64,000 bases of DNA. Origin: Buttiauxella agrestis (GTDB lineage Bacteria; Pseudomonadota; Gammaproteobacteria; Enterobacterales; Enterobacteriaceae). The position numbers were made by a program, and so were the translations under genes. The notes beneath the pieces were generated by a model. That model ran no database searches and was not told the DNA's origin. It saw nothing but the letters and a program-made list of their open reading frames with translations. Below, piece by piece: positions 11,768 to 64,000 of the stretch. Within the stretch, counting starts at the first letter, position 1, and the number at the start of each line of letters is the position of its first letter. The stretch is from positions 2,134,763-2,198,762 of the forward strand of contig NZ_UIGI01000001.1 in assembly GCF_900446255.1 (NCBI RefSeq), given 5' to 3'.

Positions 11768-11811
11768 AGGTTTGTCCGACTTGTGAAAATAAATCGTACA
11801 AACCTGTTTTT
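11768..11811 (+). terminator. long hairpin AGGTTTGT/ACAAACCT followed by T-run
   Basis: A perfect 8-base inverted repeat closes a ~22-base loop and is followed by GTTTTT. It may end the cyclase transcript, or form part of the 5' leader of the following microprotein gene. Confidence 0.5.
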
Positions 11812-11855
11812 CCCTGATACAGTATCCTTTCAATAACAAATAAAAGTAGGTTTTT

Positions 11856-48585: not shown

Positions 48586-50058
48586 TCAGGGATGGTGCTT
48601 AATCATTTTCACCAGGCGCAAAAAAGAGGGCAGCATGTCGTCGTCCTGAACACTGGCAAATCCAACTAATAACCCTTTTGATTTTTGCGCATTAAAATAG
48701 TAGCGCGACAGCGGCCTGACCAGAATACCTTCGGCATTCGCGAGTTTTGCAATGTGGATATCATCTACTTCGGCGGGAAGCTGAATGATTAAATGTAACC
48801 CGGCATTACTATTGTAATAACCGAGATATTCCTCCCCTAAATGCCGCTTAATTAACTCGACCAGTTGGTTGCGTCGTTTGCTATATAACTGGCGCATTTT
48901 GCGGATATGCGCGGCGTAATAACCTTCGCGAATAAACTCCGCAAGTGCCGCCTGAATCACCTGATGGCCGCTGCGATATAATTCGTTGTGAACTTTTTTA
49001 AGCGGAGCGGCGAGCACTTTGGGCAAAACCACGTAACCCAGACGCAGCGCGGGGTAGAGCGTTTTGCTGAACGTGCCGATGTAAATGACCGGGCTGTTTT
49101 CCTCAAGCCCCTGAAGCGATGGAATCGGCTGGCCCGAAAAACGAAATTCGCTGTCGTAATCATCTTCCACAATCCAGCTCTGGCATTCCCTGGCCTGCGA
49201 AAGTAATAACTGGCGGCGCGGCAGGCTCATCACAGAACCCAGCGGATACTGATGCGAGGGCGTAACAAAGATTAATTTTGGCTTTTCATCGGCATTGGCC
49301 TGCGGCATTAATCCCTGATCATCGACCTCCAGCGCCGAAATATTCACCGCATTCATGCGCAGAATATTTTTAATTCCCCAGTAACCGGGTTCTTCAATCC
49401 ACGCATTGTCGCCGGGATTACATAACGTGCGGGTGACTAAATCCAGCGCCTGGTGAATCCCTTCGGTAATGAGAATCTGGTCGGTGGTGCATTTTACGCC
49501 GCGTGCGGTGCGCAGATAATCCGAGAGCGCAGACTTTAACTCCTCCAGCCCGGATGCGGCGTCGTAGGTCAGATATTCAGGATTCGGGCGTCTGGCGACA
49601 CGGTCGTAGATTTTCTTAAACGTGCGATGCGGAAAGCTTTCGACATCCGGCACGCCGGGAATGAAGTCGCCCCATTGCGCCGGGCTGGCGCTGGCGTTTT
49701 CCAGCAATTCCAGGCAGCGCAGGGAAAGGCTGGCGCGGTCTTCTGGCGCAGTAGCGGGCACCGTGCGTGCGGCCAGCGTATTCAGGTTATCGAGCACGCT
49801 TTCGGTGACAAACGTGCCGCTGCTGGTGCGCGTTGAAATATACCCTTCGGCCTGCAATTGCTCATACACCCGCAGTACGGTGTTACGCGAAAGCGATAAC
49901 TCATTGGCCAAATCGCGGGTCGGCGGCATACGCGCCGCAGGGCGCAAACTTCCCTCAAGAATACAATTACATATCGCGGCATAAAGTTTCTTATGCAGTT
50001 TCTCGGCAGGGGTCTGGAGAAATGCCTGCTTGATCACATCTACGGTAAGTGAACGCAT
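48586..50058 (-). CDS. MocR/GabR-type GntR regulator with aminotransferase-like domain
   Basis: A 490-residue regulator with an N-terminal GntR winged helix (~10-80: ARMPPTRDLANELSLSRNTV) fused to a fold-type I aminotransferase domain. The PLP lysine is in YIGTFSKTLYPALRLGY and the Asp that holds the pyridine nitrogen in VEDDYDSEF. Relatives such as GabR activate GABA-use genes when GABA and PLP react in the domain. It is divergent from puuE and gabD-like genes with 110 bases between, so it very likely controls them. The ATG at 50058 is chosen; the frame is open 25 codons upstream. Confidence 0.88.
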   Translation of the reverse strand: MRSLTVDVIKQAFLQTPAEKLHKKLYAAICNCILEGSLRPAARMPPTRDLANELSLSRNTVLRVYEQLQAEGYISTRTSSGTFVTESVLDNLNTLAARTVPATAPEDRASLSLRCLELLENASASPAQWGDFIPGVPDVESFPHRTFKKIYDRVARRPNPEYLTYDAASGLEELKSALSDYLRTARGVKCTTDQILITEGIHQALDLVTRTLCNPGDNAWIEEPGYWGIKNILRMNAVNISALEVDDQGLMPQANADEKPKLIFVTPSHQYPLGSVMSLPRRQLLLSQARECQSWIVEDDYDSEFRFSGQPIPSLQGLEENSPVIYIGTFSKTLYPALRLGYVVLPKVLAAPLKKVHNELYRSGHQVIQAALAEFIREGYYAAHIRKMRQLYSKRRNQLVELIKRHLGEEYLGYYNSNAGLHLIIQLPAEVDDIHIAKLANAEGILVRPLSRYYFNAQKSKGLLVGFASVQDDDMLPSFLRLVKMIKHHP

Positions 50059-50168
50059 TTGGATCCTATGAATAAAACGATTTGGCTCTCGATTCAGGTA
50101 CCAGATACTGTCTAAATGAAATTCGACAATCAACCTGTAAATCTTAATTTCGTGTGAGGGATAAAAAA

Positions 50169-51434
50169 ATGAGCAATAACGAACTCCACCAACGTCGTCT
50201 GGCCGCTACACCGCGTGGCGTGGGCGTGATGTGTAATTTCTTTGCACAAACCGCTGAAAACAGCACCATTACCGATGTGGAAGGGAAGCAATATATCGAT
50301 TTTGCTGCGGGCATTGCGGTGCTCAATACCGGCCATCGCCACCCGCGCCTGGTTCAGGCCATCGAACAGCAGCTTCATGCGTTTACCCACACCGCTTATC
50401 AGATTGTCCCTTACGAAAGCTATGTCGCGCTGGCGGAAAAAATTAACGCCGCAGCCCCGATTGTTGGCCCTAAGAAAACGGCGTTTTTCACTACCGGCGC
50501 TGAAGCCGTTGAGAACGCGGTGAAAATCGCTCGTGCTTATACCGGTCGCCCGGGCGTGATTGCTTTTAGCGGCGGATTCCATGGCCGCACCTATATGACG
50601 ATGGCGCTGACGGGCAAAGTGGCTCCGTACAAAATTGGTTTTGGCCCATTCCCCGGCTCCGTATTCCATGCGCCATATCCGTCTGAGCTCAGTGGTATTT
50701 CCACCGAAGATGCGGTGAAAGCCATCGAGCGCCTGTTCAAATCAGACATTGAAGCGACGCAAGTTGCCGCGATTATCTTCGAGCCGGTCCAGGGCGAAGG
50801 CGGTTTTAACGTGGCTCCGCCAGAATTTGTGGCGGCTATTCGCCAGATTTGTAACACCCACGGCATCGTGATGATTGCCGACGAAGTACAAAGCGGTTTT
50901 GCCCGTACCGGCAAAATGTTTGCCATGAACCACTATTCCCATCAGCCCGATTTGATGACGATGGCGAAAAGCCTGGCGGGTGGAATGCCGTTATCCGGCG
51001 TGGTCGGCAAAGCAGAAATTATGGATGCGCCAGCGCCGGGCGGACTAGGGGGAACCTACGCCGGGAACCCGCTTGCCGTTGCTTCGGCTCACGCGGTGCT
51101 GGATGTCATTGCGGACGAAAAGCTCTGTTTACGAGCGCAAACACTGGGCGAACGCCTGACTTCACGGCTGCGTGAAATCACCGCCACATGCCCTGCGCTG
51201 GTTGAAATCCGTGGCCTGGGTTCCATGGTCGCGGCTGAGTTTTACGACCCGGCAACCGGAGAACCGTCTGCGGCCATCGCGCAACAGGTGCAAAAACGCG
51301 CGCTGGAGCAAGGCTTGCTGCTGCTAACCTGCGGGCAAAATGGCAACGTGATTCGCTTCTTGTACCCGCTGACGATTCCTGACGCGCAGTTCGATCAGGC
51401 GCTGGATATCATTAAAACCGCGACGCAGATGTGA
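50169..51434 (+). CDS. puuE: PuuE, 4-aminobutyrate aminotransferase
   Basis: The 421-residue PLP enzyme transfers the amino group of GABA to 2-oxoglutarate, giving succinate semialdehyde and glutamate. It begins MSNNELHQRRLAATPRGVGV, like E. coli PuuE and unlike GabT, and has the same length. The PLP lysine is in MTMAKSLAGGMPLSG; IADEVQSGFARTG is the cofactor-binding region. GAGGG lies before the ATG. In E. coli puuE is in the putrescine puu operon; here it is paired with a gabD-like gene, which starts eight bases after its stop. Confidence 0.93.
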   Translation: MSNNELHQRRLAATPRGVGVMCNFFAQTAENSTITDVEGKQYIDFAAGIAVLNTGHRHPRLVQAIEQQLHAFTHTAYQIVPYESYVALAEKINAAAPIVGPKKTAFFTTGAEAVENAVKIARAYTGRPGVIAFSGGFHGRTYMTMALTGKVAPYKIGFGPFPGSVFHAPYPSELSGISTEDAVKAIERLFKSDIEATQVAAIIFEPVQGEGGFNVAPPEFVAAIRQICNTHGIVMIADEVQSGFARTGKMFAMNHYSHQPDLMTMAKSLAGGMPLSGVVGKAEIMDAPAPGGLGGTYAGNPLAVASAHAVLDVIADEKLCLRAQTLGERLTSRLREITATCPALVEIRGLGSMVAAEFYDPATGEPSAAIAQQVQKRALEQGLLLLTCGQNGNVIRFLYPLTIPDAQFDQALDIIKTATQM

Positions 51435-51442
51435 GACTCAAA

Positions 51443-52894
51443 ATGATCAATCTGAAAAATAACGATTTGCTGCGCGATGCCTGCCTGATTGCAGGGGAAT
51501 GGAGCCATGCGCAGTCGGGCAAAACCATGACGGTAGTAAATGCTGCCACCGGGGAAAAAATAGCGGATGTGCCTTCAATGGCGCTGGCCGAAACGCAGCG
51601 CGCCATTGAGGCCGCTGAAGTCGCGCAAAAAGAGTGGAAGACGCAAACGGCGGCCAGTCGCGCCAAAATTCTCCACAGTTGGGTGAACCTGATTCAGGAA
51701 AACAGTGAAGATCTGGCGCGACTGATAACTCTCGAAGGCGGCAAACCGCTGGCTGAGGCGCGAGGTGAAATCAACTACGCCGCCTCGTTTATTACCTGGT
51801 TTGCGGAAGAGGCCAAAAGGGTAGACGGCGTTTTGTTGCAGCCAACCGCGGCGGATCAACGTTTTATCGTCTCCAGGCAACCGGTCGGCGTTTGCGCGGC
51901 AATTACACCGTGGAATTTCCCGGCGGCGATGATCACCCGCAAAGTCGCGCCTGCACTTGCCGCAGGCTGCGCGATTATCGTAAAACCCGCGGAGCAAACC
52001 CCGCTGACCGCGCTGGCGCTGGCAAAACTGGCCGAGCTGGCGGGCTTGCCGCAAGGACTGTTGCAGGTAATCACTGGGGACGCCAAAGAAATTGGCGGTG
52101 AGCTTTGCCGCAACGCGACGGTTCGTAAACTGAGTTTTACCGGCTCCACGGACACCGGACGTCTGTTAATGGCGCAATGCGCGCCGACCATCAAAAAATT
52201 GTCGCTGGAGTTAGGGGGCAATGCGCCCGTTATCGTCTTCGATGATGCGGATCTTGAGCTGGCCGTGAAAGGCATTATGGCGTCGAAATTCCGCAATAGC
52301 GGGCAGACGTGCGTGTGTGCGAACCGAATTTATGTGCAAAGCGGGATTTATCAGGCGCTCAGCGCGGAACTGGTCAAAGCGGTGGAAGCGCTGAAGGTCG
52401 GCAACGGCATGGATGACGGCATTACTCAAGGGCCGCTAATCAATGCCAAAGCGATTGAGAAGGTGGAGCTTCATATTCACGACGCGGTAGAAAAGGGCGC
52501 AACGGTATTAATCGGCGGCCACAAACACGGGTTGGGTGGAAACTTTTTCGCGCCGACGGTGGTGGCAAATGTCACACAGAATATGCGCTTTGCGAAAGAA
52601 GAAACCTTCGGGCCAGTTGCTCCGCTATTTAAATTTGAAACCGATGCCGAAGCGGTTAATTACGCCAACGACACCGAATTTGGTTTAGCCGCTTATATCT
52701 TCACTCAGGATGCAAAACGCCAGTGGCTAATCCCGGAGGCGCTGGAATATGGCATGGTTGGCGTCAATACCGGGCTGATTTCTAATGAAGTTGCGCCGTT
52801 TGGCGGGATTAAACAGTCAGGCCTGGGGCGAGAAGGTTCTAAGTTCGGAATAGATGAGTATCTGGAGATGAAGTATGTCTGCGTAAAACTCTGA
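51443..52894 (+). CDS. gabD: GabD-type succinate-semialdehyde dehydrogenase
   Basis: The 483-residue aldehyde dehydrogenase oxidises succinate semialdehyde to succinate with NAD(P)+. Catalytic residues are the Asn in TPWNFPAAM, the Glu in LELGGNAPVIV and the Cys in NSGQTCVCANR. It aligns with E. coli GabD (482) along its length, but many positions differ, so it may be a GabD paralogue. It lies eight bases after puuE, as a transaminase-dehydrogenase pair. The ATG at 51443 is chosen; a GTG four codons earlier is in frame. Confidence 0.88.
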   Translation: MINLKNNDLLRDACLIAGEWSHAQSGKTMTVVNAATGEKIADVPSMALAETQRAIEAAEVAQKEWKTQTAASRAKILHSWVNLIQENSEDLARLITLEGGKPLAEARGEINYAASFITWFAEEAKRVDGVLLQPTAADQRFIVSRQPVGVCAAITPWNFPAAMITRKVAPALAAGCAIIVKPAEQTPLTALALAKLAELAGLPQGLLQVITGDAKEIGGELCRNATVRKLSFTGSTDTGRLLMAQCAPTIKKLSLELGGNAPVIVFDDADLELAVKGIMASKFRNSGQTCVCANRIYVQSGIYQALSAELVKAVEALKVGNGMDDGITQGPLINAKAIEKVELHIHDAVEKGATVLIGGHKHGLGGNFFAPTVVANVTQNMRFAKEETFGPVAPLFKFETDAEAVNYANDTEFGLAAYIFTQDAKRQWLIPEALEYGMVGVNTGLISNEVAPFGGIKQSGLGREGSKFGIDEYLEMKYVCVKL

Positions 52895-52904
52895 CTTTGT
52901 AAAA

Positions 52905-52989
52905 TGGTGGATAACGCTTCGCTTATCCACCCTACAATTCATCGCGCCATAGCCTTTCGTAGGTCGGATAAGCGAAGCGTCATCCGACA
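52905..52989. repeat. BIME: two inverted REP units
   Basis: GGTGGATAACGCTTCGC and, inverted, GGTCGGATAAGCGAAGC face each other over about 27 bases after the gabD-like stop. The stems differ from the units at 34889, showing independent copies. Confidence 0.88.
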
Positions 52990-53054
52990 AAATCCCACCT
53001 GTTAAAATCTCGTCAAAATCTTTAACAATTATGTGACATTGAGCGTATACATAT

Positions 53055-53067
53055 AACATATTATGTT
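53055..53067. promoter_or_regulatory. palindrome AACATATTATGTT before the APC permease
   Basis: A 13-base palindrome, about 50 bases upstream of the permease ATG. A related inverted repeat AAAACATA ... TATGTTTT lies before the aldehyde dehydrogenase operon at 56381. A common site for the neighbouring GntR/FCD regulator is inferred. Confidence 0.45.
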
Positions 53068-53117
53068 TTATAAAATACACACACTGCCTGCCCTTATGCC
53101 ACATAAAGAGAAAAGAT

Positions 53118-54596
53118 ATGGAACAGACGACAGACAAAGAAAATCTTCAACATCAGCCAGTTAAAGGCGAGCAATTCAACCGCTCGATAGGGCTGATGTC
53201 TAACTTCGCATTGGGATTCACTTATCTTTCGCCGCTTACTGCGGTGTATTCGCTGTTCGCCCTCGCGGTGACGCTGGCAGGGCCTCCGGCAATCTGGTGG
53301 ATTTTAATTGTTGCCTGCGGTCAATTGCTGGTGGCATTAGTCTTTGGCGAAGTGGCTTCGCAATATCCGATTACTGGCGGTTTATATCCGTGGGCGAGAA
53401 GATTGTGGGGTAAAAAATATGCCTGGATTGCCGCGTGGATTTATCTCTGGGCATTAGTCGTGACAATCACTTCCATTGCCGAATATACCGCCACCTTTGT
53501 TGCGTCATTGTTTCACTACGCGACCAGCGCGGGCAACATGATGCTGACTTCCGTCGTCCTGCTGTTGATTATGATGGGGGTCAATATGTCCGGGACCAAA
53601 AACTTAGCCCGCGTCGCTAAAATTGGTTTTTGGTGCGAAATTGTCAGCGTGATTGCGCTGGGTATTTACCTGTTAATTTTCCACCGCGCCCAGCCGTTCT
53701 CTGTGGTATTTGACTCCATGGGCGTGCTCTCCGCAGACGGTAATTACACCACCGCGTTTATGTCCGCCTCGTTAATGGGCTTGTTTATGTTCTTTGGCTT
53801 TGAAGCCTGCGGCAATGTGGCGGAAGAGGTTAAAAACCCAGGCAAGAAGATTCCAGTGGCGATGATTTTAAGTATCGTGTTTGGGGCTATTTCAGCGGTT
53901 ATCTCAATCATGGGGTATTTACTCTCTTCCCCCGACTTGCAGGATATTGTTAACGGCAAAATCTCAGACCCGATCCCGACCATTCTTAACCAGGCGCTGG
54001 GTGAAACCGGGGCGACGATATTTATCGTGGTCGCTGTTATCGCCATGCTGTCGTGTATTCTTTCTTTGCAAGCCGCATTGAGCCGCCTGATCTTCTCTTT
54101 CTCCCGCGATAACATGCTGCCGGGCAGCGAGTGGATGTCGAAGATTTCCAAACACAGCGTGCCGGATAACGCGATGATGGTGAGCTGCTTATTGCCGGTG
54201 ATTATTTGTGTCTGGGTTTACTTCCAGCCGGATAGCCTGGCGCGAATCACAGCCTTTGCGGTTATCGGTATCTATATTTCTTTCCAGATGGTGGTGCTTG
54301 CGGCATTGCGTCAGCGCCTGAAAGGCTGGAAACCAGCAGGGGAATGGACGGTCGGCTCATGGGGAATTATCGTCAACGTGCTGGCGCTGGCTTATGGTTT
54401 GTGCGGGATTTGGTTACTGGCACAACCGGCGGCAGGCGAGAGTTTTGTGGATCGCTGGACGGTATTAGTCGGGCTGGCGATTGTGATCATTTCCGGTCTG
54501 CTTTACATGTTTATCACTAAACCGTTTGGCCGTTCGAATGCACCAGAAAACGATGCGATTGAATATGCTCGCAAGTTGAATGCGGAACAGTCATAA
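53118..54596 (+). CDS. APC-family amino acid/amine permease
   Basis: A 492-residue transporter with about 12 helices of the amino acid/choline transporter branch: FNRSIGLMSNFALGFTYLSP, ASQYPITGGLYPWARRLWG, FFGFEACGNVAEEVKNPGKK and SFSRDNMLPGSEWMS. Relatives move GABA, choline or polyamines. It sits between the puuE/gabD pair and the spermidine-type oxidation operon, so an amine or GABA is the likely cargo (inference). A terminator follows. Confidence 0.87.
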   Translation: MEQTTDKENLQHQPVKGEQFNRSIGLMSNFALGFTYLSPLTAVYSLFALAVTLAGPPAIWWILIVACGQLLVALVFGEVASQYPITGGLYPWARRLWGKKYAWIAAWIYLWALVVTITSIAEYTATFVASLFHYATSAGNMMLTSVVLLLIMMGVNMSGTKNLARVAKIGFWCEIVSVIALGIYLLIFHRAQPFSVVFDSMGVLSADGNYTTAFMSASLMGLFMFFGFEACGNVAEEVKNPGKKIPVAMILSIVFGAISAVISIMGYLLSSPDLQDIVNGKISDPIPTILNQALGETGATIFIVVAVIAMLSCILSLQAALSRLIFSFSRDNMLPGSEWMSKISKHSVPDNAMMVSCLLPVIICVWVYFQPDSLARITAFAVIGIYISFQMVVLAALRQRLKGWKPAGEWTVGSWGIIVNVLALAYGLCGIWLLAQPAAGESFVDRWTVLVGLAIVIISGLLYMFITKPFGRSNAPENDAIEYARKLNAEQS

Positions 54597-54601
54597 ACAT
54601 A

Positions 54602-54626
54602 AGGGCGGGTTTTACCCGCCCGTTTT
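54602..54626. terminator. terminator between permease and Cache-domain gene
   Basis: GGGCGGG pairs with CCCGCCC around TTTTA, followed by GTTTTA. It lies between the two convergent genes and overlaps the end of the Cache gene. Confidence 0.85.
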
Positions 54627-55317
54627 ACTTTGCCTGATATAAATTAAAGTAATCATTTTCATAAACCACAGATGCCAGTCTGACATCCAGCAAGTCACCC
54701 ACGCGGAATTTTGGATGGCTCGAAAATACAATTCTGCGCTCTTTATTGGTAAGAAAAACTTTATCATTCGTCGCGAAAGGTAATAACTCATCCTCAACAC
54801 GACTCACCAATAAATCAATCGCCGCCACGCCTAAGAATTGCTGGTTGAAATAAACCGGAACGGCGGAGGTAATGGTGTACGAAGTATTGCAGATATAATC
54901 AACGTAGGGACCATGAATAAACGCGTTACCCACAGCTGGCGCTTGTTTGAACCACTCAAAGGTTCTGAAATCCAGGCGCTGTTGGGTAGCCTGGTCTAAG
55001 TCAAGATTCACCTGTTTTACGCCGTCGGCCTTCTTATACCACCACTCCAGTAGCCAGAATTCCTTATTGTTTCCCGTGGCTTCGATATGGCTGGCAAACC
55101 CCGCGCCCGAACAATAAATATTGCTGTTTAATGTCTTTTTAATATGTTCCTGAATGGTCTTTCTGACGGAAGGTTCAAGCAGATGTTCAAGATTAACCCC
55201 TTCAATTTCAGCAAGTGTTGATTGAATATCTTTCGCCAGCATTCCGGTGGAATCAATCATCGAATTGATGATGCTGTCTATTTTTTCGCTTAGGTTACAG
55301 AGTGATGTTGTTAGCAT
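54625..55317 (-). CDS. soluble Cache/PDC sensor-domain protein
   Basis: A 230-residue protein consisting only of an N-terminal coiled region (~1-60) and a Cache-type (PDC) domain; no membrane helix, signal peptide or output domain is seen. In the ligand region it has RTFEWFKQAP, GPYVDYIC and GVAAIDLLVSR, including Trp, Tyr and Asp positions that bind the amino group in amine- and amino-acid-sensing dCache domains. It may sense a polyamine or GABA in the cytosol and act on the adjacent GntR regulator (inference). The ATG at 55317 is chosen because longer starts lie inside ERIC copy 3. Confidence 0.75.
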   Translation of the reverse strand: MLTTSLCNLSEKIDSIINSMIDSTGMLAKDIQSTLAEIEGVNLEHLLEPSVRKTIQEHIKKTLNSNIYCSGAGFASHIEATGNNKEFWLLEWWYKKADGVKQVNLDLDQATQQRLDFRTFEWFKQAPAVGNAFIHGPYVDYICNTSYTITSAVPVYFNQQFLGVAAIDLLVSRVEDELLPFATNDKVFLTNKERRIVFSSHPKFRVGDLLDVRLASVVYENDYFNLYQAK

Positions 55318-55334
55318 ATTTATGCCTGTTGTTA

Positions 55335-55461
55335 TATACCCGTCATACTTCAAGTTGCCTCTTTGTTGGCTGCGTTCTCGCACCCGAATCACTTACTTAT
55401 GTAAGCTCATCGGGACTTGTTCTCTTGCCGTCGCGATGCAACTCGAATTATTTTGGGTATT
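55335..55461. repeat. ERIC element, copy 3
   Basis: A 127-base ERIC that starts TATACCCGTCATACTTCAAG and ends TTTTGGGTAT. It fills the whole gap between the GntR regulator and the Cache gene: the regulator's stop codon lies in its end, and the Cache start is 17 bases past its other end, so it forms the leader of that gene if the two are co-transcribed. Confidence 0.95.
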
Positions 55462-56185
55462 ATTTTATATTGTTTATCAATTTATTTTCTATCAGATAGA
55501 AAGTAAACGTGTCGATTAACTTTTTGGCAAGGTTAACGGACTCCGCTTCATTGTGTGAAGCCAGAGTGTCAATTAACGTGGTATACAGCTCAACAATTTC
55601 GCGATGGATATTGTCTGAACGGAACAAAATCGCCACAAGCGATGACCATTCTGATTGCAAAATCAATTCCTGGTTCGCCAGGCGGGCTGATTGAGAACAC
55701 GCCGCAATCGCTAACAAACAGCGCATATCCGCCTGAGTGCGTGCTTCAGGAGATTGGGCTGAGTCGAGAACCGAAACAAAATCACGCAGGCGGGTAATAT
55801 CTGCCTGGGTCATTCTTCGCGAGGCTAATCTTGCACTGTGACTAATAATGGCGCAGTGCATTTCACCGAGATCGGAAAGGTAATCGGTGCTTAATGATTT
55901 AAAAGGATTAAGCGTTTGACTTAATTCCCAGGCTTGTTCGCAAACAAAACTTCCACCATTACGCCCACGTACCGTATGGATTAAATTATTGGCACGCAGA
56001 GTATTTAACGCTTCGCGGATAGTGATGTGAGAAACCCCCATCATTTTCGCCAGATCCGCTTCATTAGGAAGTTGCTCATTGGCCTCAAGCAGGCCGGTAA
56101 TAATGGCGTTGGAAAGTCGCTGAACGATTTGATCGGAACGGCTGGCCTGACCGATTGGCGCAAATATCACCGCATGAGTAATCAT
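55460..56185 (-). CDS. GntR-family regulator, FCD (FadR-type) subfamily
   Basis: A 241-residue regulator with an N-terminal winged helix (QLPNEADLAKMMGVSHITIR) and a C-terminal helical FCD ligand domain, with metal/ligand-type residues in EMHCAIISHSARLA and HNEAESVNLAKKL. FCD regulators bind small carboxylates or related metabolites. It is divergent from the aldehyde dehydrogenase-spdH-cytochrome operon and upstream of the Cache gene, so it probably controls this module. The stop codon is formed at the ERIC edge, so the C-terminal end may have been set by that insertion. Confidence 0.87.
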   Translation of the reverse strand: MITHAVIFAPIGQASRSDQIVQRLSNAIITGLLEANEQLPNEADLAKMMGVSHITIREALNTLRANNLIHTVRGRNGGSFVCEQAWELSQTLNPFKSLSTDYLSDLGEMHCAIISHSARLASRRMTQADITRLRDFVSVLDSAQSPEARTQADMRCLLAIAACSQSARLANQELILQSEWSSLVAILFRSDNIHREIVELYTTLIDTLASHNEAESVNLAKKLIDTFTFYLIENKLINNIK

Positions 56186-56380
56186 AATATTCCCTGGAGA
56201 GATAATCCCTGAAAAGAGCCTTTGAACATAGCATACAACCCCTTGTTAATGAAGGAAGCCTTAAGTATTCGTGTTCAGGCACTTCACTTTGATGAGCTGC
56301 GCAATTGCAGCGCAAAAAATCGTTTTGGAATGAGATGCATATCAAATTGTTAGTAAATTGTTATTGAATTTATCTCGCTC

Positions 56381-56411
56381 AAAACATATTACATAATAGT
56401 GTTTATGTTTT
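56381..56411. promoter_or_regulatory. inverted repeat before the aldehyde dehydrogenase operon
   Basis: AAAACATA and TATGTTTT, separated by 15 bases, lie in the region between the divergent GntR gene and the operon, ending 17 bases before the dehydrogenase ATG. The arms match the permease palindrome at 53055. Confidence 0.45.
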
Positions 56412-56428
56412 AACGAGCGGAGAGCGGG

Positions 56429-57856
56429 ATGAAAGTACTGAAGCACTTTATCAATGGGCAATACCTGGCCGGTTCGCAGGATAATCTTTTTGACCTGGTC
56501 AGCCCGGTCAATGGCGAAACTTACGCGCTGTCGCCGAGTGCAGGGCGAGAAGAAGTCGAGCAGGCATACCGCGCGGCGAAAAGCGCGTTTGCGGTCTGGA
56601 AACTTTCCGCGCCTGCGCAACGCCAGTTAGCGCTTCTGAAGCTGGCCGATGAAATCGAACGCAATGTTGACCGACTGGTGAGCGCCCAAAGTGAAGAGAC
56701 CGGGCAGTTGCGCCACTTCATTGAGAAAGAAGAGATTGCGGCTTCTTGCGATGCGCTGCGGTTCTTTGCGGGTGCCGCCCGTTGCCTTGAAGGGAAAGCA
56801 TCATACGAATATGCCGCCGGTTTAACCTCCACTATTCGCCGCGAACCGCTGGGTATCGTAGGCCAGGTCACGCCGTGGAATTACCCGTTCATGATGGCGG
56901 TATGGAAAATTGCCCCGGCGCTGGCTGCGGGCAACACGGTGGTACTCAAACCGAGTGACACCACACCAGTCAGCACCTTAATTCTGGCAGAACTGGCCGC
57001 ACCGCTATTCCCGCAGGGCGCCTTTAACGTGGTGCTCGGTAAAGCGGAAACCGGATCGCTGGTGGTTTCCAGCCCGGAAGCCTCGCTGGTGTCGATTACC
57101 GGATCGGTCCGCGCGGGTCTGCAAGTTGCGGCCTCGGCGGCAGCAAACCTCACCAAAGCGCATCTCGAACTGGGCGGCAAAGCGCCGGTGATTGTTTTTG
57201 CCGACGCCGACATTAATAAAGCCGTCGATACCATCACCACCGCCGGGTTCTTCAACGCCGGGCAAGATTGCACTTCTGCCACCCGCATCCTGATTGAAGA
57301 GTCGATTTACGCATCGTTTGTCGAAAAACTGGTGAGCAAAACCCGCGAAATTACCTTCGGCACGCCAGAAGACAAAAATGCGTTATACGGCGCGTTGAAC
57401 AGCCGCAGCCAGCTTGAACAGGTGAAAGGGTTCATCAGCCGCCTCCCGGCTCATGCCAAAATTGAAACCGGCGGCAAGCCTGGCGCAGGCCCTGGTTTTT
57501 ACTTTGAACCGACGATTATTTCCGGCCTTGAGCAGCGCGACGAAGCTATTCAGCACGAAGTTTTTGGCCCGGTCATGACGGTGCAAAAATTCTCCTCAGA
57601 AGCCGAAGCGCTCGAAAAAGCCAACGACGTGGAATACGGGCTGGCGTCCAGCGTCTGGACCACTAACCACGGTCGCGCCCAGCGCTTTAGTATCCGCCTG
57701 GATTTCGGCACCGTGTGGATTAACAACCACATTCCTCTGTGCGCTGAAATGCCCCACGGCGGCTTTAAAAAATCCGGCTACGGCAAGGATTTGTCCTCGT
57801 ACGCGCTGGATGAATACACCCGCGTAAAACACATCATGTGCGACGTTTCCGAATAA
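56429..57856 (+). CDS. gamma-aminobutyraldehyde-type aldehyde dehydrogenase (PatD/YdcW-like)
   Basis: A 475-residue NAD(P)-dependent aldehyde dehydrogenase, closest by eye to E. coli PatD/YdcW: GAARCLEGKASYEY, TPWNYPFMMAVWKIAPALAAG, HLELGGKAPVIVF with the catalytic Glu, and NAGQDCTSATR with the nucleophilic Cys; it ends EMPHGGFKKSGYGKDLS. PatD oxidises 4-aminobutyraldehyde to GABA, the product expected from a spermidine dehydrogenase. It has no signal peptide, so it is cytosolic. First gene of the operon with the NTF2-like protein, spdH and cytochrome c; AGAGCGGG lies before the ATG. Confidence 0.88.
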   Translation: MKVLKHFINGQYLAGSQDNLFDLVSPVNGETYALSPSAGREEVEQAYRAAKSAFAVWKLSAPAQRQLALLKLADEIERNVDRLVSAQSEETGQLRHFIEKEEIAASCDALRFFAGAARCLEGKASYEYAAGLTSTIRREPLGIVGQVTPWNYPFMMAVWKIAPALAAGNTVVLKPSDTTPVSTLILAELAAPLFPQGAFNVVLGKAETGSLVVSSPEASLVSITGSVRAGLQVAASAAANLTKAHLELGGKAPVIVFADADINKAVDTITTAGFFNAGQDCTSATRILIEESIYASFVEKLVSKTREITFGTPEDKNALYGALNSRSQLEQVKGFISRLPAHAKIETGGKPGAGPGFYFEPTIISGLEQRDEAIQHEVFGPVMTVQKFSSEAEALEKANDVEYGLASSVWTTNHGRAQRFSIRLDFGTVWINNHIPLCAEMPHGGFKKSGYGKDLSSYALDEYTRVKHIMCDVSE

Positions 57857-57868
57857 TAAGGTGATGAA

Positions 57869-58345
57869 ATGAAAGCAATAAAAGCCGCTGCGTTATCTTT
57901 TGTACTATTCTCAAATTTAGCGTTGGCCGACGTTTCTCCGTTAACCGTGGTTAAAGATTATATGTCCGCGTGGAACGCGCATGATGCTGCTAAAGCCGCG
58001 CAATATTTAGCGCCGGACGTGGTTTATTACGACGCCGCAAGCGGTACGCCAGTGAATGGCAAAAGCAATGCTGAAAAAGAGGTGATTGGGGCCTTTATTA
58101 AAGCCGTGCCAGATTTAACCTGGAAAATGACCAGTAAACCGGTTTATGACCACGACACCATCGCCTTTCGCTGGGAATTCAGCGGCAAAAATAGCGGCGA
58201 ATGGGCGGGAAGCCCGGCGACCAATAACCCGATTAAATTTGAAGGGGTGAGTTACATCACCGTCAATAACGGGAAAATTACCTGGCAGGGCGATTATTAC
58301 GACTCCAAAAAGCTCGATGAAGAATTAAAGCCAAAAAATAAATAA
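57869..58345 (+). CDS. exported NTF2/SnoaL-like protein
   Basis: A 158-residue protein with a signal peptide (AAALSFVLFSNLALADV) and a SnoaL/NTF2-like cone fold: VKDYMSAWNAHDAAKAAQYL, then AFIKAVPDLTWKMTSKPVYD and FEGVSYITVNNGKITWQGDY. Such domains bind small hydrophobic or amine ligands, or act as isomerases or cyclases. It lies 12 bases after the dehydrogenase and eight bases before spdH, so it probably acts in the periplasm with SpdH, possibly as an accessory or product-handling factor (inference). No function is known for this role. Confidence 0.78.
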   Translation: MKAIKAAALSFVLFSNLALADVSPLTVVKDYMSAWNAHDAAKAAQYLAPDVVYYDAASGTPVNGKSNAEKEVIGAFIKAVPDLTWKMTSKPVYDHDTIAFRWEFSGKNSGEWAGSPATNNPIKFEGVSYITVNNGKITWQGDYYDSKKLDEELKPKNK

Positions 58346-58353
58346 GGTCTTAT

Positions 58354-60246
58354 ATGTCGATTACCAGACGTGATTTTCTCAATGGGGTGGCAATTACTAT
58401 TGCCGCAGGGATGACGCCGCTCGATCTTGCTAAAGCCGCTGGAAAAGCCACCACGATAATGGGCGATGATTATTACCCGCCGCAGTTAACAGGCCTGCGT
58501 GGGAATCATCCCGGTTCATTTGAAATGGCCCACGCCGTGGGGCGCGACCATGAAAAATTCAGTGCCGACCATCTTCCCATCAAAGAAGAATACGATCTGG
58601 TCATTGTCGGGGGCGGGCTGAGTGGTTTAGCCGCCGCCAGCTTCTGGCACGATGTGATGGGTAAAGAGAGCAAAGTGCTGGTTCTCGACAACCACGATGA
58701 TTTTGGCGGACACGCCAAACGCAATGAGTTTAATGCCGGCGGCAAAAAAATCATCGGTTACGGTGGCAGCGAAGCCTTTCAGTCGCCGACACGAAATTTT
58801 AGCGAGGTCGTCAACGGGCTGATGTCCACGGTCGGCGTCAGCGTCACGCGCATGAAGCAAAGTTTTGATGTGAATTTCTACCCCGACTTACACCTCAGCC
58901 GGGGCGTATTCTTTGATAAAAAGAACTTCGGTGAAACGAAAATTGTGGGTGGCGACCCAGGGCGTGCGGTGGCTGATGACATTCCTCCGGACAGGCTCAA
59001 TGGCCGCCCGCTGGCTGAGTTTATCAACGATTTCCCGTTAAGCGAAAGTGACCGCAAAGCCATTCTGGACCTGTACGTGAACCCGGTTGATTACCTGAAA
59101 GGGATGACGCAGGACGAAAAAAACGCCTGGATGGACACCCACAGTTATCACGATTTCCTGACTGAGAAAGTGGGCCTGAGCAAAATGGCGATGATGTATT
59201 TCCAGCAGCGCACCAACGACTTTTTCGCCATCGGTATAGAAGGCGTGAGTTGTTCCGACGCCCGAACCTGCGCGCTGCCGGGGATGGATGCCATGGAGCT
59301 ACCGCCGCTGGATGAAGAAGCTCTCGCCGACCTCGAAGAGCCGTATGTTTATCATTTGCCGGATGGCAATGCGGGTCTGGCGCGTCTGATCGTTCGCCAT
59401 CTGGTACCTGAAGCGTTACCCGGAAATACCATGGAGGATTCTGTCACCTCGCGGCTCAATTACGAAAAGCTCGATCAGCCGGAAAACACCACCCGAATCC
59501 GTCTTAACAGTATTGTGATTAATTCCAAAAACAGCGAGGGCGGCGTGGTTGTGACCTACGTTAACGATGGCAAAGCGTACCGTGTGAAAGGGCGCAACGC
59601 GATCATGGCCGGTTACAACATGATGATCCCATACCTGGTGCCAGAAACGCCGGAAGAGCAAAAAGACGATCTGCGCCTGAACGTCAAAGCGCCGCTGGTT
59701 TACACCAATGTGGTGGTCAAAAACTGGCAGGCGTTCACGCAACTGGGTATTCACGAGTTCTATTCTCCGGCGGCCCCGTACAGCCGCGTGAAGCTCGATT
59801 ACCCGGTCAGCCTCGGCAGTTACCAGCATCCGCATAACCCGGATGAACCGATGTGCCTGCATATGGTTTATGTCCCAACCTATCCGGGCAGCAAATTGAG
59901 CGCGCGCGAGCAGTTCCGCCAGGGGCGAGCGTATTTATTGGGCACGACGTTTGATACTCACGAGCAAATGATTCGCTCGCAACTTCAGGAAATGCTCGGG
60001 CATACCGGCTTTGACCATCAACGCGATATCACGGCAATTACCGTTAACCGCTGGGCGCACGGCTATGCGTATTACGCCAGCGCATTGTTCGATGATATGG
60101 ACAAAATACCGCAAATTGTCGAGCGGGCGCGCAAACCGATTGGGCGCATTGCAATTGCCAACTCTGACTCAGACTGGGATGCCTACGCGCACACGGCGAT
60201 TGACCAGGCCTGGCGTGCGGTCAACGAACTTAAGGCAATGGGGTGA
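58354..60246 (+). CDS. SpdH-family FAD-dependent spermidine dehydrogenase, Tat-exported
   Basis: A 630-residue flavoprotein with the twin-arginine signal SITRRDFLNGVAITIAAG, so it should be folded in the cytosol and exported. The FAD site is LVIVGGGLSGLAAASF near residues 82-97, followed by LVLDNHDDFGGHAKRNEF; ITAITVNRWAHGYAYY near the C-terminus is typical of the family. Homologues called SpdH in Pseudomonas and Serratia oxidise spermidine to 1,3-diaminopropane and 4-aminobutyraldehyde. The adjacent triheme cytochrome is the likely electron acceptor and the first operon gene fits the aldehyde product. The substrate itself is inferred. Confidence 0.82.
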   Translation: MSITRRDFLNGVAITIAAGMTPLDLAKAAGKATTIMGDDYYPPQLTGLRGNHPGSFEMAHAVGRDHEKFSADHLPIKEEYDLVIVGGGLSGLAAASFWHDVMGKESKVLVLDNHDDFGGHAKRNEFNAGGKKIIGYGGSEAFQSPTRNFSEVVNGLMSTVGVSVTRMKQSFDVNFYPDLHLSRGVFFDKKNFGETKIVGGDPGRAVADDIPPDRLNGRPLAEFINDFPLSESDRKAILDLYVNPVDYLKGMTQDEKNAWMDTHSYHDFLTEKVGLSKMAMMYFQQRTNDFFAIGIEGVSCSDARTCALPGMDAMELPPLDEEALADLEEPYVYHLPDGNAGLARLIVRHLVPEALPGNTMEDSVTSRLNYEKLDQPENTTRIRLNSIVINSKNSEGGVVVTYVNDGKAYRVKGRNAIMAGYNMMIPYLVPETPEEQKDDLRLNVKAPLVYTNVVVKNWQAFTQLGIHEFYSPAAPYSRVKLDYPVSLGSYQHPHNPDEPMCLHMVYVPTYPGSKLSAREQFRQGRAYLLGTTFDTHEQMIRSQLQEMLGHTGFDHQRDITAITVNRWAHGYAYYASALFDDMDKIPQIVERARKPIGRIAIANSDSDWDAYAHTAIDQAWRAVNELKAMG

Positions 60247-60252
60247 TTTAAG

Positions 60253-61431
60253 ATGAAACAAACTCTATTGGCTATCGGATGTTTGATGGTTGCCGGAAAT
60301 GCTGCGGCTGATTCTTCACCCGGTAATTCTTCACCCGGTAAATACATAGCGCGGGCGTCAGATTGCGTGGCCTGCCATACCGCCGAAGGCGGGCAACCGA
60401 TGGCGGGCGGCAAGAAATTTTCAACGCCGGTTGGGGATATTTACGCCACCAATATCACGCCGGATAAAACCGCCGGGATCGGCAATTACTCTTACGAAGA
60501 TTTCGAAAAAGCCGTGAGGCAGGGGATTGCGAAAGACGGGCACGCGCTCTATCCGGCGATGCCATATCCTTCCTACGCCAGAATGACCGACAAAGATATT
60601 CATGATTTGTACGATTACTTTATGAATGAAGTCCCGCCGTCGGCGCAAAAGAATAAAGATAATGATATCCCGTGGCTATTATCCGCCCGCTGGCCGCTGC
60701 ATATCTGGAATTGGCTTAATGTCGATGACACTCAATCGGTTAATCACGCCAATAAGCCCGATGAACAGCACAATGTATTATTGAGCCGGGGCGAATATTT
60801 AGTCGAAGGGCCGGGGCATTGTGGCGCCTGTCATACTCCTCGCGGCGTCACGATGCAGGAAAAAGCCTATGACGCCTCCAGCGATGTTTATTTGAGCGGT
60901 GCGATGATTGACGGCTGGAATGCCCCGTCGCTCAGAAACATCTCGATGTCGCGGGAGGAATTAAAAGGCTTGCTGCGAACGGGCAAAAGCCAGCATGACG
61001 CGCTCTCCGGGCCGATGAGCGAAGTGGTGATGCAGAGTACGCAATATATGACCGACGGCGATCTGGAGGCGATTTCATATTATTTGCTCAATTTTAACCA
61101 TCCCGATGCGGGTGCGGTGTCTACAAGCGGGGCAATAACCTATTCGCCGAAAGACGGTAAAACGCTTTATTCCATGTATTGCTCGACCTGCCACGGCGAT
61201 GACGGCAAAGGCAAAGATTTTACCGTGCCAACGCTTGTGAATAACTCCATCGTCATGGCGAAAGATCCGGCGTCACTGCTTTCAGTCATTAATGACGGAA
61301 CCCAGACACCGCAGACGCAAGGGAATATTTCTTTCAAAATGCCAGCTTACAAACAGGTTATGTCTGAGGAAGAGCGAAATAACGTGGTGAATTACGTGCG
61401 CGGAACCTGGGGTAAACAAGCCGATAAATAA
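60253..61431 (+). CDS. periplasmic triheme c-type cytochrome
   Basis: A 392-residue protein with a signal peptide (LLAIGCLMVAGNAAAD) and three CxxCH heme sites: DCVACHTAEG, HCGACHTPRG and CSTCHGDDGKG. It resembles the cytochrome subunits of gluconate 2-dehydrogenase and membrane alcohol dehydrogenases, which pass electrons from a periplasmic flavoenzyme to ubiquinone. It follows spdH by six bases. The N-terminus has a repeated SSPGNSSPGK. It is the last gene of the operon. Confidence 0.92.
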   Translation: MKQTLLAIGCLMVAGNAAADSSPGNSSPGKYIARASDCVACHTAEGGQPMAGGKKFSTPVGDIYATNITPDKTAGIGNYSYEDFEKAVRQGIAKDGHALYPAMPYPSYARMTDKDIHDLYDYFMNEVPPSAQKNKDNDIPWLLSARWPLHIWNWLNVDDTQSVNHANKPDEQHNVLLSRGEYLVEGPGHCGACHTPRGVTMQEKAYDASSDVYLSGAMIDGWNAPSLRNISMSREELKGLLRTGKSQHDALSGPMSEVVMQSTQYMTDGDLEAISYYLLNFNHPDAGAVSTSGAITYSPKDGKTLYSMYCSTCHGDDGKGKDFTVPTLVNNSIVMAKDPASLLSVINDGTQTPQTQGNISFKMPAYKQVMSEEERNNVVNYVRGTWGKQADK

Positions 61432-61441
61432 AGGATTCAGG

Positions 61442-61537
61442 GTTGAAGAGGCCATCAAAACGCACCTGGCTTATAACGAGCGCGTCCAGGAAGAGAGGGA
61501 TCTGAAAAAATACTCTGACGCCGCTTCCGGCCAATGA
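61442..61537 (+). pseudogene. possible C-terminal gene remnant
   Basis: A frame without a normal start encodes VEEAIKTHLAYNERVQEERD then LKKYSDAASGQ and stops. The amphipathic, charged character and clean stop look like the tail of a lost gene between the cytochrome and the terminator. Chance coding cannot be excluded. Confidence 0.35.
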
Positions 61538-61576: not shown

Positions 61577-62278
61577 TTATTTCCTGGAAATATCCCGTTC
61601 GGTTTTCTCAAGAATACGCCCGTAATCGTTAATACTTTGCCAGCTTAAATGGCAGGTGTTTACCGTCGCACATCCGTTGATACTTCGCGTGCTAAACGGG
61701 GCCACCATCCCTGGGTTATCAATTTTTTTACCGTTAACCACCAGATTCACTAGCGTCACATAAAACGGCGTCGGGTTACTGACGCGGGCCTGCCCACGGC
61801 TTTTCTCCCATCTGAGCTGTTTATAAGCCTCCTGCGGGTTTCCTTTTAAATTGGCCGGGCGGTAAAAAAGCTTCATTCTGGAACGCACCGCAATTTGCAC
61901 GCTATTGGCTTGAGCCTGGCCCGAAGGGATTGCAGCGATACTCAAGGTAAACAAACTTTCGCGGTCAGGGGGCATGTTGGCGTGAGTTTTGAGTAAGCGA
62001 ACGCTGTTTTCTCGCCCTGGTTTGAGGGAGAAAAGCGGCGGTGTAGCGATAAACGGGGCAGGTTGTGTTGAAGGTGTCACCCCTTTCCATGTACCGCCAG
62101 AACTCACGGTGGTATTGATAAGCCAGGCGCTCTGGCTGGTATTGCGAAGCTCAACTTTCACCCCTTTTGCCTGCTCGTGATAGATAAATCGAGTGCCGCC
62201 AATGCTGACTCCCGCCATGCTTTGTGTGACGTGCCCAAAGAACACAATAGTGGCTGCTGCAATAAAAGTTTTATTCAT
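61577..62278 (-). CDS. periplasmic fimbrial chaperone (PapD/FimC-like)
   Basis: A 233-residue chaperone with a signal peptide ending near QSMAGVSIGGTRF. The two Ig-like domains carry family landmarks: TRFIYHEQAKGVKVELRN, the PLFSLKPGRENSVRLL region and VRSRMKLFYRPANL. It binds pilins in the periplasm by donor-strand complementation and delivers them to an usher. Here it is the last gene of the operon; it overlaps the preceding subunit gene by eight bases. No usher is inside the window. Confidence 0.92.
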   Translation of the reverse strand: MNKTFIAAATIVFFGHVTQSMAGVSIGGTRFIYHEQAKGVKVELRNTSQSAWLINTTVSSGGTWKGVTPSTQPAPFIATPPLFSLKPGRENSVRLLKTHANMPPDRESLFTLSIAAIPSGQAQANSVQIAVRSRMKLFYRPANLKGNPQEAYKQLRWEKSRGQARVSNPTPFYVTLVNLVVNGKKIDNPGMVAPFSTRSINGCATVNTCHLSWQSINDYGRILEKTERDISRK

Positions 62279-62792
62279 AAGTCAGTGTAAAAGTGATGGT
62301 GGCATTGGCCGCGCCAGCGCTGACATTACTGCCGTCAGCCACATAGCGGGCAAAAAAAGGCAGCGTTACATTTGCCTGGCGCGATGTCAGTGCGGTTCCG
62401 CCGCTTAGGTTATTAACCGGAACCAGCGTTTTATCGCTATCGTATAGCCCAATTCCTACGCCCTGAGCGCTTTGCGCTTGCGTTGTTACGGCGAGTAGCT
62501 GCGAATTTACGGAGTTCGGTGTGCCAATAAACGTGATGCTGACGCGACTGGCGGCGGCATCGCAACGTTCCAGATGAATGGTAAACGGTTCATAACGCGT
62601 GGCGGCACCCGCCCGGTAAAACTGCTTGCTGCTGACGTTTCCCATCTCCACCGTCAGGTTTTGTGAATCGGCGGAAACCACGCAGGTGTTGTCGGTTATC
62701 GTGCCGGTGATATTCATGGTTCCGTCATGGGCAAGCGCTGCGAATATACCGCCTGCCGATAGCGCCACCGTGAGCAAAAAATGGAGTTTCAT
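62271..62792 (-). CDS. minor fimbrial subunit (pilin fold)
   Basis: A 173-residue pilin with a signal peptide ending near AALAHDGTMNITGTI. The disulfide pair is DNTCVVSAD ... LERCDAAAS; the C-terminus ATITFTLTYE has the alternating pattern with the penultimate Tyr of chaperone-usher pilins. It lies between another subunit and the chaperone. Its role (adaptor, terminator or major subunit) is not clear. Confidence 0.9.
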   Translation of the reverse strand: MKLHFLLTVALSAGGIFAALAHDGTMNITGTITDNTCVVSADSQNLTVEMGNVSSKQFYRAGAATRYEPFTIHLERCDAAASRVSITFIGTPNSVNSQLLAVTTQAQSAQGVGIGLYDSDKTLVPVNNLSGGTALTSRQANVTLPFFARYVADGSNVSAGAANATITFTLTYE

Positions 62793-62801
62793 GCGGCCAC
62801 C

Positions 62802-63341
62802 TTATTGATACTGCAAATCAAAATACATGACGGAGGAGGCATCCCCGGCCGTCACCACATTTTGCGTGGCTTTATAGCGCAGATAAAACGGCAGAGAATT
62901 GCTCCCCGGCGAGAGTTCGTAAACGGCGGATGACAGGGTGTTAATCGCCAGCGGCTGTTGGTTGCTATCGAGGATTTCTATCCCAACACCGGTTGCCATA
63001 GCCCCCGTGCTTCCCGTGTCTGAAAGCGCGAGTAATGCCGGGTTGTCGCTGTCGTTCGTGCCAGAAAATGTCAGCTTAGTGCCGGTCGCGGCGGAGCCAC
63101 AATTGACCAAATCAATGGTGAACCGTTTGGCGGCCGTCGTGTCGCCTGCGGCGGCAAAGTGACTTACGGAAAACTGGCCGATGTTCACCGTCTGGCTTTG
63201 GCTACTGCTGACATCACAGGTGCGCGACAAAATCGTGCCGGTCATTTGCAAGTTGTAGGCATCCGCGGCGGCATACGGGGCAACCAGCAGGAAGAGTGCG
63301 GTGGATAATTCCTTCAGAGGGGGCTGTTTTATTTTCATCAT
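62802..63341 (-). CDS. fimbrial subunit (pilin fold)
   Basis: A 179-residue pilin with a signal peptide ending near VAPYAAADAYNLQMTGTI. The disulfide pair is SRTCDVSSS ... LVNCGSAAT, and the C-terminus VMYFDLQYQ is of the pilin type. It follows the adhesin-like gene by six bases and precedes the second subunit by nine, as one operon. Similarity to the next subunit suggests tandem duplication of minor pilins. Confidence 0.9.
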   Translation of the reverse strand: MMKIKQPPLKELSTALFLLVAPYAAADAYNLQMTGTILSRTCDVSSSQSQTVNIGQFSVSHFAAAGDTTAAKRFTIDLVNCGSAATGTKLTFSGTNDSDNPALLALSDTGSTGAMATGVGIEILDSNQQPLAINTLSSAVYELSPGSNSLPFYLRYKATQNVVTAGDASSVMYFDLQYQ

Positions 63342-63347
63342 AACTCC

Positions 63348-64000
63348 TCAGGAAAAATCCACGCGCAAGACGGCGAGGGCGGTAAAAGTGCCCTCGGCAG
63401 GAGCGTTGCCAGTGGTACTGACCGGATAAGCGCTAAGCATCACATTGGTCGAAAAGGTTTCGGTATTTATCTGATCGAGTGCCAGAGGAATGGAACTGGA
63501 GTCGTCATTAGGGCGCAGCAGGGCGCTATTCTGGTCGGTTATCGCCACGCCAACGTCCGGATTATCAGACTGGATGGCATCGCCGTTGGCGGTAGCAGTG
63601 CCTTTCAACGAAAGTGAGAGGTTTGCCAGAGACGCGCCGTAGTTGCACTCAACCGGCACGCTGAAAGTTTGCGGGGTAACGTTGTCTGCTTTCTGCCCCG
63701 CGGCGGTAAAATCGGTGTTGTACATCGTACCAAAATCAACATGTATGACCGCACCGGCATTCACGCTGCAATTTTGCGGGACGGAAATAACGCCATTGAG
63801 GAACACCTGCGCGATGGGTTCCGGGCTATACACGCCACTTTGCTTAGACAGGAAAATATCGGCCACATGGATGTTGTCAAATGAGGTGGTGCCGACGAAG
63901 GGTTTAATGATTTTTAAGTCCAGAAAGCCGGTGGTCCCTGCTGGCATGCTCGTCTGGCCTGCTGAGTCGTTGGCACCGCCTCCTCGTATATTTTTGAAAG
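63348..64000 (-). CDS. fimbrial adhesin-like protein, 5' end outside window
   Basis: At least 217 residues of a fimbrial tip-type protein whose N-terminus lies beyond the window; the frame stays open to base 64000 through GGGANDSAGQTS. The C-terminal half is a pilin domain (VISVPQNCSVNAGAVIHVDF, PVECNYGASLANLS, ending ALAVLRVDFS), and the part before (DLKIIKPFVGTTSFDNIHVA) may be a lectin-type domain. A two-domain layout before minor subunits fits FimH/SfmH-like adhesins. The ATG at 63947 is internal. Confidence 0.82.
   Translation of the reverse strand, partial: FKNIRGGGANDSAGQTSMPAGTTGFLDLKIIKPFVGTTSFDNIHVADIFLSKQSGVYSPEPIAQVFLNGVISVPQNCSVNAGAVIHVDFGTMYNTDFTAAGQKADNVTPQTFSVPVECNYGASLANLSLSLKGTATANGDAIQSDNPDVGVAITDQNSALLRPNDDSSSIPLALDQINTETFSTNVMLSAYPVSTTGNAPAEGTFTALAVLRVDFS

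Follow-up and report, generated by a model that had tools for sequence, protein, structure and literature searches.

What is the function of a Buttiauxella agrestis locus in which a predicted periplasmic spermidine dehydrogenase (SpdH) stands beside a triheme cytochrome c, a permease and genes for the use of 4-aminobutyrate (GABA)? The locus lies at positions 48586-61431 of the window, the whole stretch of 64,000 nucleotides of contig NZ_UIGI01000001.1 analysed here, and an initial annotation had described it as a complete pathway from spermidine to succinate. In our reading, the cluster is probably a catabolic module that oxidizes spermidine in the periplasm and brings both the fragments and the electrons into metabolism. 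SpdH would cut spermidine to 1,3-diaminopropane and 4-aminobutanal, the latter in equilibrium with 1-pyrroline, and the electrons would pass from flavin adenine dinucleotide (FAD) via heme b and the triheme cytochrome to the quinone pool. An APC permease would carry a product into the cytosol, where a PatD-like enzyme would make GABA and PuuE and a GabD-like enzyme would convert it to succinate. A GntR-type regulator would control patD-snoaL-spdH-cytC and the permease gene through an ACATAA-N6-TTATGT palindrome and would probably be tuned by a soluble Cache protein binding an amine, the GABA half being under the separate control of a MocR-type regulator.

All ten genes named in the initial annotation are intact open reading frames at 48586-61431, in the places given there. 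The four at the centre of the argument are as follows.

56429-57856, plus strand: patD-like aldehyde dehydrogenase gene (aminobutyraldehyde-dehydrogenase subfamily NF010000, 639.5 bits against a cut-off of 615; PDB entry 1wnb, E = 1.6e-137)
57869-58345, plus strand: snoaL, exported SnoaL/NTF2-fold protein (Pfam SnoaL, 74.7 bits)
58354-60246, plus strand: spdH, exported spermidine dehydrogenase of the twin-arginine translocation (Tat) type with FAD and heme b (match to PDB entry 7d9f)
60253-61431, plus strand: cytC, exported triheme cytochrome c (PDB entry 8gy2_B, E = 5.4e-94; three CxxCH motifs)

These genes share a strand and are separated by 12, 8 and 6 bp, which upholds the operon proposed for SpdH, the cytochrome, the PatD-like enzyme and the NTF2-like protein and refines it to patD-snoaL-spdH-cytC. 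Inspection by eye gave a Tat signal for SpdH, signal peptides for CytC and SnoaL and none for the PatD-like protein.

SpdH (630 residues) aligns over residues 1-626 with Pseudomonas aeruginosa SpdH (PaSpdH; 7d9f, E = 1.3e-231) and begins with MSITRRDFLNG, by eye a twin-arginine signal. The heme-b ligands of PaSpdH are given as His54 and His562 (PMC12564564; this and the other articles are cited from excerpts); they align with H60 and H569 of the window protein, predicted axial ligands that are kept in 60/60 distinct full-length homologues. The residues altered in PDB entries 7d9i and 7d9j, D282 and Y443, correspond by alignment to D289 and Y450, retained in 51 and 59 of these 60 homologues, and the nine rows without D289 are relatives at about 40%. 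We assume that these two residues have a role in the substrate site. The full-length match, the kept residues and the twin-arginine start support the identity and exported location first assigned to SpdH; judged by its sequence the protein is a spermidine dehydrogenase, and spermidine oxidation is the predicted activity. The Serratia marcescens, Citrobacter freundii and P. aeruginosa enzymes form 1,3-diaminopropane and 4-aminobutanal (cited in PMC7576179), products also given in PMC12564564 and PMC9397018, and PaSpdH oxidizes spermine too (PMC7576179). The S. marcescens enzyme dates from 1970 and that of C. freundii from 1992 (cited in PMC12564564 and PMC7576179), and novelty of spermidine oxidation in Enterobacterales was rejected because of these earlier publications. 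In a review, the membrane-associated enzymes listed as having a c-type cytochrome include spermidine dehydrogenase (PMC6472588). At E = 1e-50 the gene is patchy, occurring in 16/394 genomes of the order, 14/398 of the phylum and 2/369 of the class; each set includes G001, the nearest genome to the window, on which the genome-wide statements below rest.

Is the gene set conserved? In 33 named loci, collected by a contig scan with short peptide patterns that favours close relatives, cytC directly follows spdH in all but one (32/33; the exception is Spirobacillus, L033), and the genes for the APC permease, Cache protein, GntR, window-type PatD, SpdH and CytC occur together in 28. These 28, with the first four genes upstream of spdH, comprise Buttiauxella, Citrobacter, Cedecea and Kluyvera as well as loci whose label is Enterobacter or Enterobacteriaceae, L012 having its APC match split in two. 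Locus L001, of B. agrestis ATCC 33320, matches the ten cluster proteins at 96-100%. The linkage of SpdH to a PatD-like dehydrogenase and a cytochrome is thereby supported. Escherichia coli gave no near-mode match to window positions 56200-61500, and in distant mode nowhere covered 80% of patD-snoaL-spdH, the best 20 of 5387 matches touching the patD part only. The remaining genes of the cluster are listed next.

48586-50055, minus strand: MocR-type regulator gene, divergent from puuE-gabD (Pfam Aminotran_1_2 and GntR)
50154-51434, plus strand: puuE, 4-aminobutyrate transaminase (PuuE equivalog NF007308, 839.6 bits against a cut-off of 747)
51431-52894, plus strand: gabD-like succinate-semialdehyde dehydrogenase gene (subfamily TIGR01780, 707.1 bits against 646.35)
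53118-54596, plus strand: APC permease gene (Pfam AA_permease_2, 155.4 bits)
54625-55392, minus strand: cache, stand-alone dCache-like protein (dCache_1, 35.8 bits, below the gathering score of 45), with a true start probably near 55317
55460-56185, minus strand: gntR, GntR/FCD regulator, divergent from patD (Pfam GntR 59.1 and FCD 36.9 bits; none of the 25 NCBIfam models shown is over its cut-off)

From orientation and spacing, the APC gene, cache-gntR, mocR and puuE-gabD (the last two genes overlapping by 4 bp) are predicted to be units apart from the patD operon. Co-conservation in relatives, a check proposed at the outset, thus holds for APC-cache-gntR-patD-spdH-cytC and fails for puuE-gabD as a stable member: puuE with gabD adjoins the spdH module in 9/33 loci, all Buttiauxella. 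Elsewhere mocR-puuE lies without gabD on the other side of the module (12/33, Citrobacter type) or about 6 kb off (2/33, Kluyvera type, where the locus end leaves gabD beyond view), and puuE was not found within the locus in 10/33, five of them of Cedecea type. The GABA half seems to be a loosely attached, separately controlled unit. These placements, together with the 3-6 mismatches carried by the best palindrome matches before puuE (24 loci), favour the most serious alternative, for and against which we see about equal weight, namely that two independent units, a spermidine oxidation module and a GABA utilization unit (mocR, puuE-gabD), adjoin by chance in Buttiauxella. Its first half is common to the explanation that we prefer, and GABA from other sources would be the main substrate of puuE-gabD. 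Set against it is the finding that in 23/33 loci mocR-puuE is at most about 11 kb away from spdH, on different sides, which suggests selection for closeness.

How might the periplasmic module be controlled? Two sites bear on the role proposed for GntR.

56391-56408, no strand assigned: palindrome ACATAATAGTGTTTATGT, a putative operator upstream of the patD operon, on the grounds of conserved position and uniqueness
53049-53066, no strand assigned: degenerate copy of the palindrome before the APC permease gene, on the grounds of its fixed place in 29/29 loci

The ACATAA-N6-TTATGT palindrome lies 37-39 bp before patD in 29/29 loci, exact in 24 and with one mismatch in five; a one-mismatch copy also stands 40 bp before patD in locus L079, genome G229, which has the same module and no exact copy. 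Among the five APC-type genomes searched, four (G001, G127, G297 and G343) contain the exact sequence once, on the spdH contig and just upstream of patD, and the reversed-pattern control occurs 0, 1, 0 and 0 times in them. No exact copy was found in G219 or G316, and the two in G287 lie elsewhere than patD. The degenerate site stands 69-70 bp before the APC gene in 29/29 loci, with one mismatch in 11, two in six and three in 12; by count the three-mismatch sites are no better than chance (at most three mismatches in 1183/5800 shuffles), and only their fixed place speaks in their favour. The random-window control includes the real sites and so overstates chance, and the loci are kin rather than independent. 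Within the window itself, 2.27 matches with no more than two mismatches are expected and five occur, a difference that is not significant. Position points to GntR as the likely binder of the palindrome.

The cache gene forms a two-gene unit with gntR. Its product shows no membrane segment (highest 19-residue hydropathy 1.29) and has L121 and F126 in place of Y121 and R126 of PctA, two residues of dCache_1AA amino-acid sensors; it keeps W128, F129, Y144 and D174, with the shared aromatic pair and Asp among them. Compared with the dCache_1AM residues of PctD (W155, F188, R103, S217, M215 and D235), W128/F129 and D174 fit, the alignment upstream being unreliable (PDB entry 7prq, E = 0.29). Intracellular stand-alone Cache domains that sense amines are described in operons with a regulator in Actinobacteria (PMC10104139).

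A second genomic arrangement links SpdH to PatD by another route. In six loci (Franconibacter L030, G287, G316, G448, G530 and G695) ydcSTUV and a canonical patD lie beside spdH, at a patD-spdH distance of 93-303 bp in five and about 2.5 kb in L030; G287 and G316 belong to the family of G001 and the last three to family f39, judged Pseudomonas-like. The respective equivalog cut-offs are exceeded by YdcS in L074 and L064 and by PatD in L074. YdcS is over the cut-off in 10 of the 24 spdH genomes searched and near spdH in five, and in G001 it is on a different contig from spdH. A tree of 53 spdH rows gathers the APC-type genes in one clade of 32 rows (support 100/100), which also includes Atlantibacter with its spdH-cytC pair alone, and the ydcSTUV-type genes fall outside. 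The presence of spdH after ydcSTUV-patD in other lineages is independent evidence for a tie of SpdH to PatD and a transporter. YdcSTUV is listed as a putrescine importer (PMC8674398), and we infer that transporters of both types supply PatD with SpdH products or with amines resembling putrescine.

What does the exported SnoaL-fold protein contribute? Its AlphaFold model (mean predicted local distance difference test score 85.5) has AclR (PDB entry 2gey, E = 4.1e-12) as its best solved Foldseek match, and the fold search yields the general SnoaL/NTF2 fold and indicates no function. D142 aligns with an aspartate of AclR and is kept in 18/18 aligned copies and in both copies of family f39. At E = 1e-15 homologues occur in 6/394 genomes of the order; five are among the 16 genomes with spdH and adjoin it (Fisher p = 3.3e-7, kinship ignored). 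The sole genome of the 394 with a homologue (45%) and no spdH match is G060. In G448 and G530 a copy at 54-55% lies on the opposite side of spdH and the cytochrome is absent; two further f39 spdH loci have no snoaL. The gene occurs in 23/33 named loci and, as five of the 28 loci of APC type do without it, is not essential; that SnoaL acts on an aminoaldehyde or pyrroline is a guess.

Several observations weigh against the spermidine module. The PatD-like protein is below the PatD equivalog cut-off (TIGR03374, 508.8 against 909.3 bits), sharing 226/471 aligned residues with the canonical PatD of L074 in a pair alignment, and the GabD-like protein is below the GabD equivalog cut-off (PRK11241, 724.4 against 828). 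The MocR-type protein fits the PdxR model (NF052282, 426.3 bits, cut-off 320) and not GabR (309.5 bits, cut-off 600), although its position beside puuE-gabD points to GABA. The APC permease matches 17 NCBIfam models, every one under its cut-off, and a SpdH product is its putative substrate. No gene for 1,3-diaminopropane was recognized in the cluster, no search aimed at such genes having been made; the C4 half is all that is covered, and the aldehyde would arise in the periplasm, whereas the PatD-like enzyme has no signal peptide. With diaminopropane and the import of the aldehyde unaccounted for, 'complete pathway' was too strong a term. A P. aeruginosa spdH mutant is reportedly little affected in growth on spermidine. 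Most of the more distant SpdH homologues (about 40%) occur without the cytochrome and the remaining partners. Neither patD nor a permease was matched near the spdH-cytC pair of Atlantibacter (L026 and L027), Duffyella, G219, G429 and G309. In Duffyella, spdH is found on three plasmids of about 0.57 Mb, and on the one examined neither patD nor a permease lies within 10 kb of spdH-cytC. A gene annotated streptogramin acetyltransferase lies at a distance of about 6 kb from the pair on D. gerundensis plasmid pEM01 (571 kb; L117).

How might the electrons leave the module? The triheme cytochrome expected beside spdH is there, with three CxxCH motifs and homology along the chain to the AdhB, FAD-dependent glucose dehydrogenase (FAD-GDH) beta and fructose dehydrogenase subunits. 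The alignment stops at residue 421/478 of AdhB (8gy2_B), 414/482 of 8hdd_B and 424/486 of 7w2j, the aligned part ending 30-68 residues before the C-terminus of five solved relatives, so that CytC lacks their C-terminal tail, presumably the membrane anchor of AdhB-type subunits. No strongly hydrophobic stretch follows residue 30 (top 19-residue hydropathy 1.06), and the copies examined have 83-107 residues between the third heme motif and the C-terminus, the exception being that of Neisseriaceae L031 (132 residues and a hydrophobic end). At locus L072 (G231) no triheme cytochrome was found beside spdH, and five other genomes of its family, f25, possess one.

In the family of G001, seven of eight spdH genomes contain a single COX1-family frame, which from its length (664-677 residues) is taken as a bo3 quinol oxidase; cytochrome c1 gave no match in these seven, nor NrfA in six of them. 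Unlike the other seven, G343, with an APC-type spdH, has a cytochrome c1 and a pair of COX1-family frames, one of them 755 residues long. Three candidates for a general electron sink or partner were rejected in a set of 11 genomes: NrfA, present in four and without a match in G001, G127, G297, G229, G219, G316 and G372; cytochrome bc1, cytochrome c1 being without a match in seven, including the three of genus g1; and the NapC/TorC family as a general partner, found in ten and absent from G219, a partner of that family being possible for Buttiauxella. A CcmF/NrfE-family protein is over its cut-off in 13/13 genomes. G001 has one COX1-family oxidase and no match to cytochrome c1 or NrfA (bd-type oxidases and cytochrome c peroxidases were not searched for), so the electrons should go to quinone or another acceptor. 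The tailless cytochrome and the absence of a cytochrome c oxidase route from the nearest genomes make the exit a guess, and entry of the electrons into the respiratory chain, as first claimed, is unproven.

A bolder version of the module we put forward only tentatively: a self-contained periplasmic amine-respiration module in which the anchorless cytochrome would reduce quinone or another acceptor without cytochrome c oxidase, the SnoaL enzyme would handle 4-aminobutanal or 1-pyrroline, exchangeable importers (APC, YdcSTUV) would feed PatD, and a cytosolic Cache amine sensor would act with GntR. Somewhat less plausible, at perhaps a quarter of our belief, is that in nature SpdH acts on a different secondary amine (spermine, norspermidine, homospermidine or a plant amine), spermidine being just the one tested; many positions differ between the Buttiauxella enzyme and PaSpdH, and the PatD equivalog does not include the PatD-like enzyme, but D289 and Y450 are kept and the C. 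freundii enzyme is named for spermidine (cited title, PMC12564564), Citrobacter contributing 12 loci with the same cluster. Least likely is detoxification or defence, in which SpdH would remove toxic extracellular spermine or spermidine and metabolic feeding would be secondary: the spdH-cytC pairs standing apart from patD and permease and the activity of PaSpdH on spermine (PMC7576179) would suit it, but spdH is accompanied by patD and a transporter in 28 APC-type and six ydcSTUV-type loci, and aminoaldehyde products are toxic themselves (PMC10648994).

Elsewhere in the window, the genes after cytC on the opposite strand, at 61577-63947, look by eye to be of fimbrial type; at E = 1e-8 the one queried, at 61577-62278, has a match in L001 and in no other of the 33 named loci. 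A dCache-GGDEF diguanylate cyclase-like gene (by eye) occupies 10155-11711, in a GC-poor patch (38% GC, 10001-12000).

The spermidine module supplies a gene context for an enzyme whose purification from enteric bacteria dates back over 50 years, and names candidate partners for it: the cytochrome, the SnoaL-fold protein, the permease and GntR/Cache. It also suggests a role for some YdcSTUV transporters in periplasmic polyamine oxidation, and it raises the question of what takes up the electrons of a periplasmic cytochrome c when a bacterium has no cytochrome c oxidase. The open-licence literature yielded no description of the window gene set, a weak negative, or of a spermidine dehydrogenase joined with a triheme cytochrome. 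The central enzyme has been known for decades; its partner genes, their shared control site and the electron exit look undescribed. What is new here is that APC, Cache, GntR, PatD, SpdH and CytC travel together, along with the palindrome, the ydcSTUV-patD alternative and the exported SnoaL-like neighbour.

Among known systems, P. aeruginosa SpdH (7d9f-7d9j) is the same enzyme over its whole length, in heme-b ligands, substrate-site residues and twin-arginine start; the excerpted accounts of it cover the enzyme alone, and the spermine/spermidine dehydrogenase pathway is named in PMC9397018. Of the four f39 loci, taken as Pseudomonas-like, three have ydcSTUV-patD before spdH, two have snoaL after it and none has the triheme cytochrome. 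The earlier Enterobacterales dehydrogenases, of S. marcescens and C. freundii, known here from cited titles and excerpts, are of the same enzyme kind, and the window cluster is carried by the 12 Citrobacter-type loci. The triheme subunits AdhB, FAD-GDH beta and that of fructose dehydrogenase are homologous to CytC over nearly the whole chain, with three CxxCH motifs, but CytC lacks the tail and its partner SpdH is a heme-b flavoenzyme of a different family. The Actinobacterial operons of dCache_1AM and a transcription factor (PMC10104139) resemble the window in the soluble single Cache domain and the two-gene unit, and differ in phylum and in the GntR/FCD partner, the amine motif being compared in part only. 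In E. coli, ydcSTUV-patD encodes a PatD of the same subfamily; the window has an APC permease instead, its PatD paralogue is more distant, and no E. coli DNA match to spdH was seen, while ydcSTUV-patD itself stands beside spdH in six other loci.

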